DNA from: Bradyrhizobium sp. Tv2a-2
GTDB lineage: Bacteria > Pseudomonadota > Alphaproteobacteria > Rhizobiales > Xanthobacteraceae
Assembly (NCBI RefSeq): GCF_000472425.1
Contig: NZ_AXAI01000003.1
Coordinates: forward strand, 188,156-252,155
Direction of reading: 5' to 3'
Length of the DNA: 64,000 bases
Notes under the pieces: model-generated
What the model saw: only the letters and a program-made list of their open reading frames with translations
Databases searched by the model: none
Told to the model about the DNA's origin: nothing
Program-made: the position numbers and the translations under genes
Shown here: positions 25,927 through 35,126 of the stretch, in pieces
How the letters are laid out: each line of letters starts with the position of its first letter
How positions within the stretch are numbered: position 1 is the stretch's first letter

Positions 25927-26679
25927 ATGATCGAGGCCGCCGTCAAGGCGCTTGAGGAAATGCTGTCGCCGCCGATGCGTTCCATTCTGTGGCGCTCGAT
26001 CGGGCTCGCCTTGGTGCTGATCACGGTGCTGTCGGTCGGACTACAGCGTCTCTTGAGCTGGCTTGCCACATCCGGCGAGAGCTGGGCAGAGGCGGCGATC
26101 GGCCCCGGCGCCCACATGCCGCTCTATGTGCTGGCCTGGATCGTCTCGGTCGCCGCCGGGCTCGGCATCGTGTTCGGCGCTATCCTGTTGATGCCGGCGA
26201 TCACCTCGCTGGTGGCGAGTCTTTTTGTTGATGAGATCGCCGACCATGTGGAGCGCGAGCACTATCCGGCCGAACGTCCGGGCGTGGCGCTGCCGTTTGC
26301 GATCGCCATGCACGAGGGCGTCAAGACGGCGCTTCTCACCATCCTGGTCTATTTGATCGCGCTGCCGTTCGTGTTCCTGGCCGGCGTCGGCTTCGTCGGC
26401 TTCTTCATCGCGACCGCCTGGCTTCTCGGCCGCGAATATTTCGAGCTCGCGGCCATGCGCTTCCGCTCGCCGGAGGAGGCCAAGGCGATGCGGCGCGACA
26501 ATGCCGCCACCATCTTCACCGCCGGACTCTTCATCGCCGCTTTCGTCTCGATCCCGGTCGTCAACCTGGCGACACCGCTGTTCGGCATGGCCTTCATGGT
26601 CCACATGCACAAGAGGCTGTCGGGGCCGCGGCCCGAGCTGATCGAGCCGGCGCGGCGGCGCGAGGCCTCGTTACGCTGA
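25927..26679 (+). CDS. EI24/CysZ-family membrane protein
   Basis: The 250-residue protein has four to five membrane helices and the EI24 pattern: LPFAIAMHEGVKTALLTILVYLIALPFVF, then FFIATAWLLGREYFELAAMR and a C-terminal NLATPLFGMAFMVHMHKR. CysZ relatives take up sulfate, but many alphaproteobacterial members are uncharacterised and the cysteine context is missing here. The RBS lies in a strong hairpin. The 3' end overlaps the convergent DHA2 transporter gene by 9 nt. Confidence 0.85.
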   Translation: MIEAAVKALEEMLSPPMRSILWRSIGLALVLITVLSVGLQRLLSWLATSGESWAEAAIGPGAHMPLYVLAWIVSVAAGLGIVFGAILLMPAITSLVASLFVDEIADHVEREHYPAERPGVALPFAIAMHEGVKTALLTILVYLIALPFVFLAGVGFVGFFIATAWLLGREYFELAAMRFRSPEEAKAMRRDNAATIFTAGLFIAAFVSIPVVNLATPLFGMAFMVHMHKRLSGPRPELIEPARRREASLR

Positions 26680-28299
26680 CGGCGAAAAGCCGCAGCGCCG
26701 CAGTACGATCTTGGCGAACTTGAACGGCTCGGGCGTGAACGGCCCGGGCGGCGCACGGGTGATACAGGCTGTGACCACGAGCCCCGCGATCGCAAACCAG
26801 AAGCACAGCCAGAAGCCGTCAATATAGGCGAGCACATTGGCTTCGCGCTGGACCAGCGAGGCCAACAGGTCGACCGCGCGCGCCGGCGCACTGCCTGCGT
26901 CGAAGCCCGCGAAGTAATTCGAGAATTGCTTCAGCATCCCGGTCACGTCCGCGCTGCCGTTCTCGACATGCACGCCGATGTAATAGGAATGGATCTGCTC
27001 GCGCACGCGGAGCCAGGTGCCCATCAGCGCAATGCCGATCTCGGAGCCGCCGAGCCGGCAGACCTGGATATAGGCCGCGAAGGCCGTGGCCCGGCTCGGA
27101 TCGGAGTTCGACAGCAGCGTGATGATGACAGGCAACAGCGTCAGCGCCTGGCCGATCGACAGCAGCACCACGATGACGACGAAATCTCCGCGCGCCCACT
27201 CATGGGTGAGCTGCGTGCCGAGCAGATTGGCTGCGGCGAAAGCGGAGAAGCCCAGCACCACGACGGCCCTCGTATCGAAATGCCGCAGCAGCCAGATCGA
27301 CAGCGGCACCAGCACGATCATCGGCAGAGCGCCGTAAGTCAGCAGCAGCGTGCCGGTCTGCTCTGGCCTCAGGCCTGCGATGGTCGCGAGGAAATTCGGC
27401 ACCAGCGACGAGTTGGCCAGACCCGACAGCGTGTAGAGCACGATCCCGAGCAGCGAGAGCCCTATATTGCGCGAGAACAGCACGTTGACATGAGCCCAGG
27501 GCTCCTTGACGAGCATCTCGTTGATTACGAAGACGACGAACAGCACCGCGCCGCCGGCCAGCAGTGCGATCACCGTGCCGGATCCCAGCCAGTCGAGCCG
27601 ATTGCCCTGGTCGAGCCCGGCATAGATCATGGACACGGAGGTGCCAAGCAGCAGCATGCCGCCCCAATCCGCATTCCTGAGCAGGTCACGATTGATCGGC
27701 TCGCTTGGCGTGCCGAGATAGACGAAAAGCGCCATCAGCGGCGCGATGAAAACGCCTTGCCAGTACAGCCACTGCCAGCCGAGATGCTCGACATAGTAGC
27801 CAACCGCGGACTGGCTGGTATCGAAGGCAAAGCCGACACGGATGGCGTAAATCGAGATCGCCGGCAGCCACCAGCGGATCGGCAAGTTACGGAAAATGAT
27901 CATCAAGGTCGCAGGCACGAAGGTGCCGAGCAACATGCCGTGGACGACACTGAGCGTGATCAGTACCGGATATTGATGAACCAGCGGGATCACGAGCGAT
28001 ACCACTGAATAGAGCAGGCTCGCAAAGCCGAGCACCCAGCGCAGGCCGAACGCGGTCGCCAGCCACGCCACCGACGGCGCGATGAAGATCTGCGAGCCGA
28101 TCGCCGCAGTCGAGAACCACGCGCCTTCGTCAAAGCCGAGCGAGAAGCCGCCGCGCAGGTCCGGCAGCCCGACCGAAGTCAGCCTGGTGTCGAAATTGGC
28201 GAGAAAGGCGCCGAGCAGCACCGCGCCGACAGCAAAAATCGGATAACGCGCAACGCCGCCGCGCGAGACCGGCCCGCGATTGCCGCTACTTTCCGCCAT
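26671..28299 (-). CDS. DHA2-family MFS exporter (EmrB-like), copy 1
   Basis: The 542-residue protein has about 14 predicted membrane helices. It begins RYPIFAVGAVLLGAFLANFDTRL, an unusual replacement for the classical D-x-T-I-V-N motif C entry, and contains LIPLVHQYPVLITLSVVHGMLLGTF. DHA2 proteins pair with HlyD-type adaptors to pump hydrophobic compounds past the outer membrane. The ATG at 28299 lies within the end of the adaptor gene (14-nt overlap), so the two are coupled. It is the last gene of the PKS-methyltransferase-exporter run. Confidence 0.88.
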   Translation of the reverse strand: MAESSGNRGPVSRGGVARYPIFAVGAVLLGAFLANFDTRLTSVGLPDLRGGFSLGFDEGAWFSTAAIGSQIFIAPSVAWLATAFGLRWVLGFASLLYSVVSLVIPLVHQYPVLITLSVVHGMLLGTFVPATLMIIFRNLPIRWWLPAISIYAIRVGFAFDTSQSAVGYYVEHLGWQWLYWQGVFIAPLMALFVYLGTPSEPINRDLLRNADWGGMLLLGTSVSMIYAGLDQGNRLDWLGSGTVIALLAGGAVLFVVFVINEMLVKEPWAHVNVLFSRNIGLSLLGIVLYTLSGLANSSLVPNFLATIAGLRPEQTGTLLLTYGALPMIVLVPLSIWLLRHFDTRAVVVLGFSAFAAANLLGTQLTHEWARGDFVVIVVLLSIGQALTLLPVIITLLSNSDPSRATAFAAYIQVCRLGGSEIGIALMGTWLRVREQIHSYYIGVHVENGSADVTGMLKQFSNYFAGFDAGSAPARAVDLLASLVQREANVLAYIDGFWLCFWFAIAGLVVTACITRAPPGPFTPEPFKFAKIVLRRCGFSPSA

Positions 28300-29455
28300 C
28301 GACGTCGTCGTCGGTGGTGTGAATGCGGGTTTCCACCGACATGCCCGGCAGGAGCTGGTCGAGCAGCTTCTGGTCCCGGTCGAAGACAATGCGAACCGGG
28401 ATGCGCTGTACCACCTTGGTGAAGTTTCCGGTCGCGTTGTCGGGCGGCAGCAGCGCGAATTGCGAGCCGGAGGCCGGCGCAATCCGTTCGACGCGGCCGG
28501 TGAGTTTCTGGTTCCGGAACGTATCGACCCTGATGTCGACGCGCTGGCCGGGACGCACATGGGTCAGCTGCGTTTCCTTGTAATTGGCGATGACATAGAC
28601 ATTGGGCAGCGGCACGACATTGATGAGATTGCTGCCGATGTTGACATAGTCGCCGGGCTGCACCTGGCGCTCGCTGACGACGCCGTCGAACGGGGCGATG
28701 ATCTTGGTATAGCCGAGCTTCAGCTTGGCCAGGCGCAGCATCGCCTTCGCGGCCTCGACGTCCGCGGCGCGCTGCTTGCGGGTTCCTTGCAGCACCTCCT
28801 GCTGATGCTTTTGCGCGGCAACGAGGGCGCGGCTGGCGTGGACATCGGCCTGCGCCTTGGAATAGGCCGCGACCGCCTGTTCCAGCCGTTGCCGAGTCCC
28901 GGCATCGGTCTGGGACAGCGATTGCTGGCGCACCTGCTCCTGGTGCGCCTCGATCTCGATCGCCTCTGCCGACGCCTGCGCGGCCTCGGCCTGCGCGATG
29001 GTCGCATATTGCAGCTCGATCTGGTTGGCGAGATTATCGAGCGCGGCCTGCGCGCCGAGCACGCCCGCCTCCGCCTGCGTCACCTGCGCCTCATAGTCCG
29101 CCGGATCGATCTGGATCAGGAGCTGGCCTTGTTTGACGCGCTGGAAATCGTCAACGGCGACGCTCAGCACCTCGCCGGAGACGCGGCTGCTCAACCTAGT
29201 CAGATCGGCGCGCACATAGGCGTCATCGGTGGTCTGGATCGCCGCGCTCCCGATCCAGATATCCCAGCGCAACGTCGCCACCGCGACAAACGCGAGCGCT
29301 GCGATCACCGCAAGCAGCGGAATCGCGAGCCGCGCCAGCGTGCTGCGCACGCTGATCGGGGCTTGCGTTCGCAGACCCGACGGCGGCGGAACCGCCGCGG
29401 GCGCCACGGCTGGTTTGGACGGGGCGGCCGGTATGGTCTGGTCCTGCTGAGTCAA
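28286..29455 (-). CDS. HlyD-family membrane fusion protein (EmrA-like)
   Basis: The 389-residue adaptor has a cytoplasmic Pro/Ala-rich tail, one membrane helix (about 43-63, LARLAIPLLAVIAALAFVAV), a barrel-sandwich half-motif (TTDDAYVRADLTRLSSRVSG), a long alpha-helical hairpin (about 115-230) and the second half-motif KIIAPFDGVVSERQVQPGDYV. The TTDDAYV sequence is the EmrA/HlyD signature. The start is TTG at 29455 with GGAGAG 8 bases upstream. It bridges the inner-membrane pump to an outer-membrane channel not encoded nearby. Confidence 0.92.
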   Translation of the reverse strand: MTQQDQTIPAAPSKPAVAPAAVPPPSGLRTQAPISVRSTLARLAIPLLAVIAALAFVAVATLRWDIWIGSAAIQTTDDAYVRADLTRLSSRVSGEVLSVAVDDFQRVKQGQLLIQIDPADYEAQVTQAEAGVLGAQAALDNLANQIELQYATIAQAEAAQASAEAIEIEAHQEQVRQQSLSQTDAGTRQRLEQAVAAYSKAQADVHASRALVAAQKHQQEVLQGTRKQRAADVEAAKAMLRLAKLKLGYTKIIAPFDGVVSERQVQPGDYVNIGSNLINVVPLPNVYVIANYKETQLTHVRPGQRVDIRVDTFRNQKLTGRVERIAPASGSQFALLPPDNATGNFTKVVQRIPVRIVFDRDQKLLDQLLPGMSVETRIHTTDDDVDGGK

Positions 29456-29555
29456 ATCTTACGCTCTCCGAATTGCGGAAACGACCATATGCCAAAGTTC
29501 CTGTCGCGGCGAGCAGCTTACGACGGCGTTCATTCATACCAATCGTGAACGCAGT

Positions 29556-31097
29556 TCATTGCTTGGCGCGATCATTTGCCAAAAACACCAGCAGGACACC
29601 GAGGACGGCGACGCCCGCGAGCATCGCCCAGGCCTCGCCGACACACAGCGCGAGCGAGGCCTTCTCGACCATCGGGCGGACAAAGTCGATTTCCTCGGGG
29701 GTCGGCGGCCCCGGCGGCCGGTTGAGCAGCCGCGACGGATCGAGCCCGATCGCCTGCGCGGCCGTGAGATCGCCGGCCAGCAGGCGGATCCGAAAGTCCT
29801 CGGCATAGGCAGCGACGCGGCCGTAGAGAATGGTGTCGATCAGCGCGATGCCGATCGCGCCGCCGAGATTGCGCATCAGATTGAACAGGGCGCTGGCGTC
29901 GGCGACGTCTTTTTCCGGCAGTGAGCCGAGCGCAATGCGGGTCGGCGGCAGCAGGCAGAACATGATGGCGACGCCGCGCAGGACCTGCGGCCAGAACATC
30001 TCGGCAAAATCCGCCGTGCGCGGCTGCAAGCTGGAAAGCCCGAGGCCGAGCGCGAACAGCAAGAAGCCGGCAGCGGTCAGCAGGCGCGCGCCGAGCCTGC
30101 TCTCCAGCAGCGCCGCCAACGGTGCCGCGATCAGTTGCGAAATCCCCGTCACCAGCATGATCGTGCCGATCTCGAACGCATCATGGCGACGGACGAATGA
30201 GAGGAACACGGGCATCAGATAGACCGAGCCGTAGAGGCCGACGCCGAGACAGAAGCTCAAGGCGCAGCCGATCGCAAAGGACCGCCGCTTCATGACCGCG
30301 AATTGCACAATCGGGTGCGCGGCGCGAAAGCTGCGCCAGACAAAGATGGCGATGCCGAGCGCGCTCGCGAGCAGCAGCCCGGCGCAGAGCGGCGAGAGCC
30401 AGCCACTCTGCGGCGCCTGCTTGAGCCCGATCTCGAGGCTTGCAAGCGCCAGCACCATGACGACAAGCGCGACCAGGTCCAGCTTTGCCAGTTCCCCAAG
30501 ATTGGTCGGCTGGCGTGGCAACAGGCGCGGCGTCAGCGCGGTCGCGATCAATCCCGGGATGACATTGATCAGAAACAGCCAGGGCCACGACCAGGTTTCG
30601 GTGATGAAGCCGCCGACCACCGGCCCGATGGTCGGCGCGAGCACGGCGACCACGCCGCCGATGGTGGTGGCGGCCGCGTGAAGCCGCGGCGGAAACAGCA
30701 TGAACACCGCCGAAAACACCGCTGGAATCAGCACGCCGCCCGAGAAGCCCTGGATGATGCGGAAGCCGAGCAGCGTGGTGAGGCTGTCGCTCAGGGCGCA
30801 GCCGATCGAGGCCAGCGTGAACAGCCCGACGCCCGAGGCAAACAGCCAGCGCAGGCTCAAAGCTCGCGTGAACAGGCCGGTGAGGGGGATCGCGATCACT
30901 TCCGCGATCAGGTAGGCGGTCTGGATCCAGCTCATCGCCTCAGGCGAAATGTTCAGCGCGCGCTGGATGGTCGGCAACGAGGTCGCAACCACCTGGATGT
31001 CCAGGATCGCCATGAACATGCCGAGGCACATCAGGAGAAAGCCGGCCCAGGTTGAGATGCGCGGTGTCGCGAACAGCGGCCGCGCGAGAGTCGACAT
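29556..31097 (-). CDS. DHA2-family MFS exporter (EmrB-like), copy 2
   Basis: The 513-residue pump has about 14 membrane helices. It starts with FLLMCLGMFMAILDIQVVATSLPTIQ, the classical motif (LDIQVV) for proton-coupled drug exporters, followed by WIQTAYLIAEVIAIPLTG and GFSGGVLIPAVFSAVF. ATG 31097 has GAGG upstream; an alternative ATG at 31127 overlaps the methyltransferase stop (ATGA) and would couple translation. It lies between the methyltransferase and HlyD genes, so a polyketide product is a reasonable export candidate (inference). Confidence 0.9.
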   Translation of the reverse strand: MSTLARPLFATPRISTWAGFLLMCLGMFMAILDIQVVATSLPTIQRALNISPEAMSWIQTAYLIAEVIAIPLTGLFTRALSLRWLFASGVGLFTLASIGCALSDSLTTLLGFRIIQGFSGGVLIPAVFSAVFMLFPPRLHAAATTIGGVVAVLAPTIGPVVGGFITETWSWPWLFLINVIPGLIATALTPRLLPRQPTNLGELAKLDLVALVVMVLALASLEIGLKQAPQSGWLSPLCAGLLLASALGIAIFVWRSFRAAHPIVQFAVMKRRSFAIGCALSFCLGVGLYGSVYLMPVFLSFVRRHDAFEIGTIMLVTGISQLIAAPLAALLESRLGARLLTAAGFLLFALGLGLSSLQPRTADFAEMFWPQVLRGVAIMFCLLPPTRIALGSLPEKDVADASALFNLMRNLGGAIGIALIDTILYGRVAAYAEDFRIRLLAGDLTAAQAIGLDPSRLLNRPPGPPTPEEIDFVRPMVEKASLALCVGEAWAMLAGVAVLGVLLVFLANDRAKQ

Positions 31098-31123
31098 TTC
31101 CTCGCAGCCTCTCTGGAGCTCCG

Positions 31124-31624
31124 TCATGGCGTGACGCTGCAGGCGGCAAGCGCACGGATCTCGGCGCGAATGCGAACCGCGAGCGCAATGCCGTTCAGCA
31201 CCGAGAACAGCAGCGCCGGCCATGGCAAGTTCAGCGCCAGTGGAAGCAGCGCGATTTCGCCAGCCACGATCACGTAATTCGGATGGGAGAGGTAGCGGTA
31301 GGGACCAGCGGTGACCAGCGGCGCGCCCGGCAGCACGATGATGCGCGTGGTCCAGCGTGAACCGAGGCTGGCGAGAACCCAAAGACGCAAGCACTGCAGC
31401 AGCGCGAAAGCAGCGAGCGCCGGCCAGTTCACTTGCTGATCCCAGCCGAAAGTCCACAGTGTGATCAGCCACGCCGCATGAAGCACGACAAGCAGCGGGT
31501 AATGACCCGCACCGACTTCGATCGCGCCCCGCTCCAGCAGCCGCGATGTGTTGTGCCGGGACAGCACCAGTTCGCCAAGCCGTTGCAGCGTGACCAAAGC
31601 CAATATGATCGAAGCGGAAGTCAC
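31124..31624 (-). CDS. isoprenylcysteine carboxyl methyltransferase-family membrane enzyme
   Basis: The 166-residue integral membrane protein has about four helices. Its C-terminal region GPYRYLSHPNYVIVAGEIALLPLAL carries the ICMT/PEMT SAM-binding pattern (PYRYxSHPNY). In bacteria this family often sits beside type III polyketide synthases and O-methylates their phenolic or pyrone products, as with SrsB in Streptomyces (established). Here GTG 31624 overlaps the PKS stop by 4 nt (GTGA), a strong sign of joint function. Confidence 0.88.
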   Translation of the reverse strand: MTSASIILALVTLQRLGELVLSRHNTSRLLERGAIEVGAGHYPLLVVLHAAWLITLWTFGWDQQVNWPALAAFALLQCLRLWVLASLGSRWTTRIIVLPGAPLVTAGPYRYLSHPNYVIVAGEIALLPLALNLPWPALLFSVLNGIALAVRIRAEIRALAACSVTP

Positions 31625-32673
31625 GGGCTGTGCCGCAGAGCGACGCAGCTTGCGGTGAAGCCCGGACCAAGCGCGGTCAACAATGACCGCGGCGGCAAAC
31701 CTTGCACAAGCGCGCGCTGCAGCACGAACAGAACCGTCGGCGCCGACATGTTGCCATAGTCGGCAATGACGTCACGCTCATGATCCAGCGCGCCCTGATC
31801 GAGCGACAGCGCGCGCTCGAGCGCGTTGATGACCTTGGTGCCGCCGGGATGACAGACAAAGCGGTCGATATCGGCTTCGCACAAATCCATGCGCGCGAGA
31901 ATCTCGGCGACGGCAGGAGCCAGGTGCTCTACGACGAAATCGGGGATGGTCCGCTGGAACACCACGCCCAATCCTGTCGCGTCAACACTCCAGCCCATGA
32001 TGCCGAGCGTATCGGGCCACAATCTCTCGGCCGATGCCTCGACCCGCGTCGATCCGCCGTCGCCGGCCCGCAGCACCAATGCCGCCGCGCCATCGCCGAA
32101 CAGGCTCGCGGCCACGATGTTGGCCTTGGTCACTTCGTCATGGCGAACCGCAAGCGTGCAGAGCTCGAGCACTACCAGCAGCACATTGGTTCCCGGCCGC
32201 GACTCGGCCAGCCGCGCCGCGACCGCGAGGCCGGAGACGCCGCCGGCGCAGCCGAGGCCGAACACCGGCACGCGCGATACATCGGCGCGGAATCCGATTT
32301 TGCCCGCGAGACGTGCTTCCAGTGTCGGCGTCGCGATGCCGGTCGAGCAGACAGTGACAACCGTATCGATGTCGTGCGCTGCGAGGTTCGCGCGCGCAAT
32401 GGCCTCGCGCGCCGCGTCGACGAACAGGGTTTCCGCGCCATCGAGGAACGCGTTGGTGCGTTCCGGCCAGCCACGCGGCTCGAGATACCATTCGATCGGC
32501 TTGACGCCGTAGCGATTGCGAATGCCGGTATTGGCAAACAGGCTCGCAAGCGTTTCGAACTGCTCGCAGCGATGCGCCAGGATGCTACGCGCGGCCTGCA
32601 GAACCTGCGTCTGCTGGAATTGATGCGGCGGCACTGAGGTCGCCAGCGACATGAGTGCCGCTGATTGGTCCAT
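31621..32673 (-). CDS. type III polyketide synthase
   Basis: The 350-residue protein is a chalcone-synthase-superfamily ketosynthase, a homodimer using acyl-CoA starters and malonyl-CoA. The full catalytic triad is visible: Cys142 in FGLGCAGGVSG, His275 in RFVCHPGGTK and Asn308 in DYGNMSAPT. Length and motifs match bacterial alkylresorcinol/alkylpyrone or PhlD-like enzymes; the starter cannot be predicted by eye. An ICMT-type methyltransferase, two DHA2 exporters and a HlyD adaptor follow in the same direction. An upstream in-frame start at 32730 lacks homology. Confidence 0.92.
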   Translation of the reverse strand: MDQSAALMSLATSVPPHQFQQTQVLQAARSILAHRCEQFETLASLFANTGIRNRYGVKPIEWYLEPRGWPERTNAFLDGAETLFVDAAREAIARANLAAHDIDTVVTVCSTGIATPTLEARLAGKIGFRADVSRVPVFGLGCAGGVSGLAVAARLAESRPGTNVLLVVLELCTLAVRHDEVTKANIVAASLFGDGAAALVLRAGDGGSTRVEASAERLWPDTLGIMGWSVDATGLGVVFQRTIPDFVVEHLAPAVAEILARMDLCEADIDRFVCHPGGTKVINALERALSLDQGALDHERDVIADYGNMSAPTVLFVLQRALVQGLPPRSLLTALGPGFTASCVALRHSP

Positions 32674-32840
32674 ATTGCTGTCCCCGCCCGACGAAACTGT
32701 CCCAGGCATAGAAACCGCGCCGACGTGCAAATATTTCGGCGAAGCTCGGGCGCCCTCGCGCAGATACCGTCACTATAAGTTGAATGGGGGCGGCGATATG
32801 GTCGCTTCGCGGTGACACCGCGTCATCAGGCGTCGCCGGT

Positions 32841-33632
32841 TCAAACCGTCTTTTCCGGCCAGCGACAGAGATCGTTGATGAGGCAGAGCTCGCAACGTGG
32901 CTTGCGCGCAAGGCAGGTGTAACGGCCGTGCAGGATCAGCCAGTGATGCGCATGCAGCATGAACTCGGCCGGGATCACTTTCTCAAGTCCGAGCTCGACC
33001 TCGAGCGGCGTGTTGCCAGGCGCCAAACCCGTGCGGTTGGCGACGCGGAAGACATGGGTGTCGACGGCCATCGTATGTTCGCCAAAGGCCATGTTGAGCA
33101 CGACATTGGCGGTCTTGCGGCCTGCGCCCGGTAGCGTTTCGATCTGCGGCCGCGTGCGCGGCACCTCGCCGCTGAACTCGTCGATCAGCTTCTGCGAAAG
33201 CGCGATGACGTTCTTCGCCTTGTTGCGATAGAGGCCGATGGTCTTGATGTAGTCGCGCACGCGCTCCTCGCCGAGCGCGAGCATCTTTTGCGGCGTGTCG
33301 GCCACCGCAAACAGCGCGCGCGTCGCCTTGTTGACGCCGGCGTCGGTTGCCTGCGCGGACAGCACCACCGCGACCAGCAGCGTGTAGGGATTGAGATGCT
33401 CCAGTTCCCCTTTTGGCTCCGGATTGGCCTTGCGAAACCGCTCAAAGGCCTCACGGATTTCGGCGGGAGTCCAAGGTTTGGGTGCCCTAAGGGATGTCTT
33501 GGCAGCGCGCTTCGGCCCGGCCGCGCCCTTGCCAGTCTTGACCTTGGTCGGCTTGACCTTCTTTGCCGATTTTTTCGGCACAGACTGAACACGCGTTGCC
33601 TTGGCGCGTTGTGCACGGATGATTTTTGCCAT
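32841..33632 (-). CDS. nth: endonuclease III (DNA glycosylase/AP lyase)
   Basis: Nth removes oxidised pyrimidines and cleaves the abasic site. The 263-residue protein has the HhH motif LPGAGRKTANVVL with catalytic Lys173, Asp191 in VDTHVFRV, and the 4Fe-4S loop Cys240-x6-Cys247-x2-Cys250-x5-Cys256. A 50-residue Lys/Ala/Thr-rich N-terminal tail precedes the core, common in rhizobial homologues. The divergent neighbour starts 22 bp away. An extension to 33791 runs into that neighbour and was not used. Confidence 0.95.
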   Translation of the reverse strand: MAKIIRAQRAKATRVQSVPKKSAKKVKPTKVKTGKGAAGPKRAAKTSLRAPKPWTPAEIREAFERFRKANPEPKGELEHLNPYTLLVAVVLSAQATDAGVNKATRALFAVADTPQKMLALGEERVRDYIKTIGLYRNKAKNVIALSQKLIDEFSGEVPRTRPQIETLPGAGRKTANVVLNMAFGEHTMAVDTHVFRVANRTGLAPGNTPLEVELGLEKVIPAEFMLHAHHWLILHGRYTCLARKPRCELCLINDLCRWPEKTV

Positions 33633-33654
33633 GAAGCGGATATACTGACAGGCC

Positions 33655-34176
33655 ATGAGCACAGGCAATGACTTTGATCCTGACACGGCCGAACCCGAAT
33701 TGTTTGCGGCGCTGTTGACGCCGCACCGGTCGCTCAACCGGACCGGTTTTATAATGGTGATGGTGTTCTTGAGCGTGGTCAGCTTCGCCACCGGAATCGC
33801 TTTTCTGCTGATGGGCGCCTGGCCGGTGTTCGGCTTTCTCGGGCTCGACGTGCTGGCGATCTATTTCGCCTTCCGGGTCAATTTCCGCCGCGCCTTGGCC
33901 AGCGAGCAGATCTCGGTGACCGCCTCAGTGCTGCGGTTGCGCCGGGTGAGCCACCGCGGCCATGTCGTGGAATGGGTCTTCAATCCGCTCTGGGTCCGGC
34001 TCGATCAGGAGGCGGATGACGAATATGGCGTGGAACGGCTCTACCTGTCCTCCAGGGGTAAGCGGGTGGCAATCGGAAGCTTCTTGAGCCCGGGGGAAAA
34101 GGCAAGCTTTTCCAAGGCTTTGACGGCCGCGCTGAGCGCCGCCCGACGCGGCCTCACCTATAACCCGGTGGTGTGA
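33655..34176 (+). CDS. DUF2244 membrane protein
   Basis: The 173-residue protein begins with an acidic stretch, then TPHRSLNRTGFIMVMVFLSV typical of DUF2244 (PF10003), two membrane helices (about 33-78), and a soluble C-terminal beta domain (VEWVFNPLWVRLDQ, GKRVAIGSFLSPGEK). Family function is unknown. In alphaproteobacteria it is frequently found next to nth, as here, divergently with a 22-bp gap. Confidence 0.85.
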   Translation: MSTGNDFDPDTAEPELFAALLTPHRSLNRTGFIMVMVFLSVVSFATGIAFLLMGAWPVFGFLGLDVLAIYFAFRVNFRRALASEQISVTASVLRLRRVSHRGHVVEWVFNPLWVRLDQEADDEYGVERLYLSSRGKRVAIGSFLSPGEKASFSKALTAALSAARRGLTYNPVV

Positions 34177-34229
34177 GTTCATCAGAAATCGGGTGGTTTG
34201 ACCAAGCTGGCCGGCCTACATCCGAGAGC

Positions 34230-35126
34230 ATGATGACACTCGCCATCCATGACCAACGCCTCGCCAAGCCGGGCCCGCAGAGCGCCGCCCTTCGCGATTA
34301 CGATTCGGTGCGGCGGGCGATCGCCTTCATCTCCGAGCACTGGCGCAACCAGCCGACCATTGAAGCCATGGCCGATTCGGCAAGCGTCACCCCTGACGAA
34401 CTGCATCATTTGTTCCGCCGCTGGGCGGGGATCACGCCCAAGGGCTTCATGCAGGCGCTGACACTGGACCACGCCAAGGGCCTGTTGCGCGGCTCGGCCA
34501 GCGTGCTCGATGCCGCGCTCGACTCCGGGCTTTCAGGACCGGGACGGCTGCATGATCTCTTCATCACCCATGAGGCGATGTCACCCGGCGAATGGAAGAA
34601 TGGCGGCGCAGGCATGACGCTGCGTTACGGCTTCCATCCCTCGCCGTTCGGCATGGCGATCGTGATGACGACCCCCCGCGGGCTTGCCGGGCTCGCCTTC
34701 GCCGATGGCGGCGAGGAGCAGTCGGCGCTGGCCGACATGACCAGCCGCTGGCCGAACTCGACCTATGTCGAGGACTATCTCGGCACCGCGCCGGTCGCGC
34801 AACGCATCTTCGATCCCAAACTATGGCGCGCGGACCAGCCGCTGCGGGTGGTCTTGATCGGGACCGATTTCGAGGTGCGGGTGTGGGAGACGCTGCTCAA
34901 GATTCCGATGGGCCGCGCGGTGTCCTATTCCGACATCGCCAACAAGATCAAATCACCAAAGGCCTCGCGTGCTGTCGGCGCGGCCGTCGGCAAGAACCCG
35001 GTCTCATTCGTGGTGCCGTGCCACCGCGCGCTCGGCAAGGACGGCAAGCTCACCGGCTATCATTGGGGCGTCACCCGCAAGCAGGCGATGCTCGGCTGGG
35101 AAGCGGGACGGATCGGGATGCAGTAG
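34230..35126 (+). CDS. AraC-type HTH / O6-methylguanine methyltransferase fusion
   Basis: The 298-residue protein has an N-terminal AraC-like helix-turn-helix (about 20-115) and a C-terminal suicide methyltransferase with the active-site PCHR motif (Cys264) and the SRAVGAAVGKNP and GYHWGVTRKQAML segments. It repairs O6-alkylguanine and, by analogy with Ada, may regulate repair genes. The zinc-binding N-Ada domain that senses phosphotriesters is absent. ATG 34230 is chosen; a GTG at 34173 overlapping the DUF2244 stop is an alternative. Confidence 0.9.
   Translation: MMTLAIHDQRLAKPGPQSAALRDYDSVRRAIAFISEHWRNQPTIEAMADSASVTPDELHHLFRRWAGITPKGFMQALTLDHAKGLLRGSASVLDAALDSGLSGPGRLHDLFITHEAMSPGEWKNGGAGMTLRYGFHPSPFGMAIVMTTPRGLAGLAFADGGEEQSALADMTSRWPNSTYVEDYLGTAPVAQRIFDPKLWRADQPLRVVLIGTDFEVRVWETLLKIPMGRAVSYSDIANKIKSPKASRAVGAAVGKNPVSFVVPCHRALGKDGKLTGYHWGVTRKQAMLGWEAGRIGMQ

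Follow-up and report, generated by a model that had tools for sequence, protein, structure and literature searches.

Gene content of the locus

We analyzed a 64,000-nt stretch of Bradyrhizobium sp. Tv2a-2 (the window; all positions are those of the whole stretch), in which five co-directional minus-strand genes lie at 26671-32673 between nth and a convergent cysZ/EI24-like gene. The five encode a type III polyketide synthase (PKS), an ICMT-family methyltransferase (ICMT), a first major facilitator superfamily (MFS) pump (DHA2a), a HlyD-type adaptor (HlyD) and a second MFS pump (DHA2b), and two conserved sequence blocks precede the PKS (Table 1). A preliminary description had read all five as one cluster; the comparisons below favor two modules, a trio of PKS, ICMT and DHA2a with its own upstream element, and a neighboring HlyD-DHA2b pump pair.

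Table 1 Genes and sequence elements of the nth-cysZ slot in the window
Feature	Position	Strand	Details
Type III polyketide synthase (PKS)	31621..32673	-	ATG start, 350 aa; Cys142-His275-Asn308; PF00195, PF02797
ICMT-family membrane methyltransferase	31124..31624	-	GTG start, 166 aa; PF04140 84.4 bits
DHA2a, EmrB-type MFS exporter, third gene of the trio	29556..31127	-	ATG start, 523 aa; PF07690; TIGR00711 355.3 bits
HlyD/EmrA-type adaptor, neighbor of the trio	28286..29455	-	TTG start, 389 aa; PF13437, PF16576
DHA2b, divergent EmrB-like MFS pump, neighbor of the trio	26671..28299	-	ATG start, 542 aa; PF07690 60.9 bits
Block 1, TCAANTTATAGTGA, dyad TCA[AC]-N6-GTGA	32770..32783	-	96 nt before the PKS ATG
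Block 2, GAAATA-N15-GGTT, promoter-like	32712..32737	-	Between dyad and PKS; from dyad search and alignments
nth (endonuclease III), one border of the slot	32841..33791	-	PF00730, PF10576
cysZ/EI24-like gene, other border, convergent	25927..26679	+	PF07264 111.5 bits; NF009407 350.9 bits (cut-off 191)

The five open reading frames were confirmed at the positions first given for them, as were the intact catalytic triad of the PKS, the GTGA shared by the PKS stop and the ICMT start, and the assignment of the second gene to the ICMT family (PF04140 gathering score 24). The DHA2a start overlaps the ICMT stop in an ATGA, a 100-nt gap separates DHA2a from HlyD, and the HlyD and DHA2b genes overlap by 14 nt. 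Of 144 distinct loci whose PKS match reaches 45% or more, 131 have the PKS stop in an NTGA context, a raw count uncorrected for stop-codon usage. Ratios of non-synonymous to synonymous polymorphism (pN/pS) against two relatives (G108 and G234) are 0.18-0.32 for the five genes, like those of nth (0.20-0.27), and the open reading frames are therefore real genes under purifying selection and not chance.

The PKS, ICMT and DHA2a genes as the conserved unit

Searching 265 genomes of the genus with the PKS (E<=1e-20) gave a match in 83. In 74 of these, counting the window, the match is an ortholog of roughly 67% identity or higher; the orthologs occupy 75 loci, of which G247 and G256 are fragmentary or broken. 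The remaining nine genomes have only a relative of 31-36% identity. Among genomes drawn from the order, 87 of 297 have a match. A profile scan of contigs confirmed at least 588 PKS relatives, and the best 80 of these, all alphaproteobacterial as far as record titles show, were kept. Around the 74 other genus loci we took up to 19 kb, or whatever the contig held.

The commonest arrangement is nth-HlyD-DHA2b-PKS-ICMT-DHA2a-cysZ (28 of 75 loci), whereas the window shares nth-PKS-ICMT-DHA2a-HlyD-DHA2b-cysZ with only G108, G039 and G230. In 15 loci the slot holds the trio without the pump pair (nth-PKS-ICMT-DHA2a-cysZ), and in 20 (19 genomes) the trio lies away from nth. The complete trio is thus present in 67 of the 75 loci, and the other eight are truncated or partial, most of them cut by contig ends (short contigs or broken copies in G137, G247, G102, G173, G169 and G256; PKS-ICMT only in G167 and G168). 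DHA2a itself occurs in 80 of the 265 genomes, and 71 of those 80 carry the PKS ortholog. Over the wider set, ICMT adjoins the PKS in 71 and DHA2a lies near it in 51 of the best 80 of at least 588 relatives. The linkage of PKS and exporter expected in related genomes accordingly holds for DHA2a and fails for DHA2b and HlyD. The conserved unit is PKS-ICMT-DHA2a, and we judge it fairly likely that these three genes are also the functional unit.

Three counts pull the other way. DHA2a is absent from 29 of the best 80 loci (five of them with too little downstream DNA) and ICMT from nine (one at a contig end and eight in Rhizobium), so neither is obligatory, and DHA2a homologs of 61-67% identity occur in nine genus genomes without a PKS ortholog.

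Two side observations concern the same families. One genome (G193) has two equal-scoring copies of the trio, 300 kb apart (PKS at C1:2738283-2739320 and 3038332-3039369; L229 and L238). A further family of type III PKS, of 30-36% identity, is present in some Bradyrhizobium genomes. None of the five loci of this family that were viewed (L233-L237) has an ICMT match nearby; one of them (G020, L237) has a DHA2a-like gene (66%) some 2 kb farther downstream, in the same orientation.

The HlyD-DHA2b pump pair as a neighbor

DHA2b (E<=1e-80) is found in 153 of the 265 genomes, 57 with and 96 without the PKS ortholog, and HlyD travels with it across genomes. All 14 PKS-less genomes fetched, a non-random pick from the upper ranking of the 96, have the order nth-HlyD-DHA2b-cysZ. 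Pump pair and trio are both present but unlinked in G011, G018 and G066, with the pump pair at nth-cysZ; in G085, G246 and G136, conversely, the pump pair lies elsewhere and the nth slot is taken by the trio. Altogether 35 genus loci have the trio without an adjoining pump pair. Outside the Bradyrhizobium/Nitrobacter group, none of 49 PKS loci contains a HlyD or DHA2b relative of at least 45% identity, and within the best 80 PKS loci such relatives occur in 12, all titled Bradyrhizobium.

These distributions bear on whether the five genes are a single system, with DHA2a passing the product to the periplasm and HlyD-DHA2b carrying it across the envelope. Such a system would suit the co-directional genes and small gaps, and neither the nth-PKS nor the DHA2a-HlyD gap shows a terminator-like site on the minus strand, so read-through may occur in this genome. 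It would also suit the pump pair lying beside the PKS in 33 of 75 genus loci, in both orders, and the excess of DHA2b in genomes with the PKS (57 of 74 vs 96 of 191, ignoring kinship). All these points weigh against a separate pump pair. However, the pump pair stands at nth-cysZ in 14 of 14 genomes that have no PKS, the trio does without it in 35 loci, and outside the group it is found in none of 49, which together leave a single five-gene system very improbable. The idea of two exporters sharing one adaptor is not supported, on the same grounds. On gene distribution, HlyD-DHA2b would with reasonable likelihood be an independent EmrAB-like pump that shares the nth-cysZ slot with the trio.

The two pumps also differ by family. 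DHA2a exceeds the cut-off of the EmrB model TIGR00711 (230.2 bits), whereas DHA2b reaches 154.1 bits and passes only the broad PF07690 (MFS_1) model, so calling both DHA2 pumps is right at the level of the broad family only. HlyD likewise scores 250.4 bits against the 390.8 of the EmrA model TIGR00998. Both pumps had been given 14 helices; a crude hydropathy count finds 14 hydrophobic segments in DHA2a and 11 in DHA2b, so the figure holds for DHA2a alone.

A conserved element upstream of the PKS

A dyad count without prior motif over 104 dereplicated PKS upstreams returned two conserved blocks, both of which fall inside the nth-PKS gap of the window. In Bradyrhizobium, block 1 (TCAANTTATAGTGA) begins about 102-122 nt and block 2 (GAAATA-N15-(G/T)GTT) about 56-95 nt before the PKS. 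Block 1 occurs once in its own genome and 30 times in the 265 genomes, 29 of these just upstream of the PKS by coordinates; the sole other match lies on contig C57 of G137, and a reversed control pattern gives five matches. With the inner bases left free, TCA[AC]-N6-GTGA is present in 22 of 39 close-relative upstreams (0.1 expected) and in 4 of 64 from distant relatives (0.3 expected), and no other spacing between N3 and N9 (six tried) gives a match. Discovery and testing of the motif drew on overlapping data, so the figure of 22 of 39 is a description, and the genome-wide count is the stronger test. Where the trio lies elsewhere, a variant consensus TCAC...TGAC is seen.

Block 1 accompanies the PKS behind nth and behind DHA2b alike. 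This points to the trio as a transcription unit of its own and speaks further against a single five-gene system. Judged from this conservation, the region before the PKS is a good candidate for the promoter/operator of the trio, and we lean towards that role. The element is apparently new as a regulatory sequence, as no earlier description was found in the open-access papers searched. Its incomplete spread weakens the case: exact block 1 is present in only 29 of the 74 PKS genomes, and the element was not seen in G108, the nearest relative of the window, in L143, in the Nitrobacter loci or in a clade comprising L147, L153-L156, L204 and L206-L210. Nor was a sigma-70-type promoter found in the region. 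As a genome-wide site, block 2 is not specific, given that GAAATA-N14..16-GGTTY has 15 matches against eight for the reversed pattern.

History of the nth-cysZ slot

In a rapidly built tree from concatenated PKS, ICMT and DHA2a sequences (66 rows, LG+G4, SH-aLRT support only, midpoint root), a branch with support 100 has all 47 nth-slot trios on the same side, and the window pairs with G108. Among these trios the presence and side of the pump pair shift repeatedly, with at least 6 changes over the four settings of the trio where the minimum is 3. Between DHA2a and HlyD, G039 and G230 contain a decayed copy, 52 nt long, of the 3' end of nth (79-81%), and G002 has one of 63 nt (94%) in its nth-PKS gap (remnants at L144 10982-11031, L148 6769-6820 and L209 9065-9127); the G039 and G230 remnants are near-identical and count as one event. 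Short matches of 14-28 nt at many loci were taken as chance. The remnants suggest insertion at the tail of nth, with nth as a landing site for modules. There is no nth remnant at the DHA2a-HlyD gap of the window or in G108, and for these two the same mode is therefore presumed. By this comparison, adjacency in the slot reflects a shared landing place more than a shared function.

On the far side of nth, divergent from it, lie a DUF2244 membrane gene and an Ada-like gene for a fused AraC-type HTH/O6-methylguanine DNA methyltransferase (33655-35126), which are conserved neighbors in many relatives.

Product class and proposed pathway

The PKS matches PF00195 (75.8 bits) and PF02797 (56 bits) above their cut-offs of 27, its triad is invariant in 31 aligned sequences, and it is the one PF00195 match in the whole genome. 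A predicted model (predicted local distance difference test 88.4, predicted template-modelling (TM) score 0.91) has Mycobacterium tuberculosis Pks11 as its top Foldseek match (4jao/4jap, TM 0.91, 32-33% identity), and Pks11 is also the nearest solved structure by sequence. CylI follows, with a PDB title that names a complex with a resorcinol product, and then tetrahydroxynaphthalene (THN) synthase, THNS (TM 0.92, 30%). By fold, the Pks11 and CylI matches make an alkylpyrone or alkylresorcinol the most likely product. None of the solved relatives listed exceeds 33% identity to the PKS, however, and the superposition of THNS is as good as that of Pks11, so that the product class is weakly constrained.

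The same matches leave room for a small aromatic product of dihydroxyphenylacetyl, phloroglucinol or naphthalene type, methylated by ICMT and pumped out for self-protection. The best NCBIfam model for the PKS, as for four relatives scanned, is DpgA (NF042429), a tetracenomycin exporter model matches DHA2a at 110 bits, and THNS is among the best fold matches. Yet the DpgA score is 156 bits against a cut-off of 425, and the tetracenomycin score is far below its own. DpgB and DpgD are of enoyl-CoA hydratase type, and no such partner is among the 18 window proteins scanned. THN synthase (RppA) is marked by Cys106 besides the catalytic Cys, and that position is Ser110 here, while Cys184 becomes Ala188 and Cys168 remains as Cys172 (the offset of 8 in numbering was deduced from the position of the catalytic Cys). 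The PKS is hence neither DpgA nor THN synthase by these tests, and a small aromatic product seems possible but rather doubtful.

A role in a stress or low-oxygen program, with an envelope lipid or redox carrier as product, is suggested by PKS relatives on three Rhizobium and Nitrobacter plasmids (R. etli CFN 42 p42d, L241; R. beringeri pRlX3, L240; Nitrobacter hamburgensis plasmid 1, L239). They lie amid stress-type genes of the BON, CBS, Hsp20, universal stress, PRC-barrel and pyridoxamine oxidase families; on p42d a PKS ortholog without ICMT sits amid BON, CBS, response-regulator and universal stress genes. No stress-type genes are found among the window neighbors scanned or beside a Phyllobacterium plasmid copy. 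EcfG-type general stress promoters are not enriched (3 of 121 upstreams, against 5 for the reverse strand and 1.25 for shuffled sequences), and FNR/FixK-type sites, like RpoN and NodD-like ones, occur in 1-5 of 104 upstreams. The FixK2-type count of 4 against 0.9 expected in these upstreams is too small to build on. We consider such a role unlikely.

We therefore return to the trio as a lipophilic-polyketide pathway. ICMT scores 24.2 bits against the 160 of the protein-S-isoprenylcysteine methyltransferase model (NF040696), and so does not count as a protein ICMT on this score; a small-molecule substrate would fit. O-methylated pyrones are present in marinum biofilms (PMC8730385). In the pathway we propose, a three-gene operon would be read from its own conserved promoter/operator region before the PKS. 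The PKS would load an acyl starter and extend it with malonyl-CoA to a short polyketide, with ring closure giving an alkylpyrone or alkylresorcinol. A hydroxyl of this lipophilic product would be O-methylated by the ICMT-type enzyme in the membrane, and DHA2a would export the product from the cytoplasm. Substrates, product class, order of steps and export are all inferred. The trio is a real, conserved type III polyketide pathway whose product is probably exported, and of the explanations weighed we find the most convincing, with moderate confidence, an operon that makes, methylates and exports a polyketide beside a separate HlyD-DHA2b. More tentatively, and with some doubt, the trio could be a mobile cassette with a private operator (TCA[AC]-N6-GTGA) and a single-target regulator, dedicated to secreted O-methylated type III polyketides of alphaproteobacteria; if so, the product may serve bacteria of soil and plants as a dedicated metabolite for signaling or for the envelope.

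Cut to three genes and a cis-element, the cluster becomes a short, testable construct, and the nth-cysZ case is a caution for gene-cluster calls made from one genome.

Comparison with known systems

PKS-ICMT also adjoins nth in STM 3809 and STM 3843 (L071 and L072), which are photosynthetic strains. Judged from these two, BRADO0151 of Bradyrhizobium sp. ORS278 is probably an ortholog of the window PKS. A Tn5 mutant of this type III PKS was unaltered in symbiotic performance (PMC3899966), which makes a decisive role in nodulation unlikely if BRADO0151 is the ortholog.

HlyD-DHA2b resembles EmrAB-type tripartite pumps in combining a HlyD adaptor with a DHA2-like MFS protein from overlapping genes, and differs from EmrAB in that both proteins stay below the NCBIfam EmrA and EmrB cut-offs. 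Pks11, for which PDB names give an alpha-pyrone or methyl-branched alkylpyrone enzyme, is like the PKS in sequence and overall fold. No paper describing the trio as such was found among the open-access papers searched. BpsB is an ICMT-like membrane methyltransferase, and bpsA-bpsB, like PKS-ICMT here, is an adjacent, coupled gene pair, a likeness of gene arrangement. For the Bacillus bpsA-bpsB alkylpyrone operon (PMC5686519) the excerpted text mentions no exporter gene, whereas the trio has DHA2a.

Cyanobacterial hidABC and planctomycete type III PKS operons (PMC10896814) also pair a type III PKS with a methyltransferase, for an alkylresorcinol product. Most of these operons include an FAD-dependent oxidoreductase and end with the PKS; of 96 planctomycete genes, 58 are in the three-gene form, and one two-gene operon lacks the oxidoreductase. 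In the window the PKS comes first, an exporter takes the place of the oxidoreductase, and none of the five genes that nth and cysZ enclose encodes an oxidoreductase. The Acetobacteraceae (Roseomonas) clusters (PMC8776678) are alphaproteobacterial and join a type III PKS to a methyltransferase, as here, but all encode an FAD-dependent monooxygenase, which this locus lacks. The trio is apparently a further case of the known PKS-methyltransferase type, to which the cis-element adds an apparently undescribed part.

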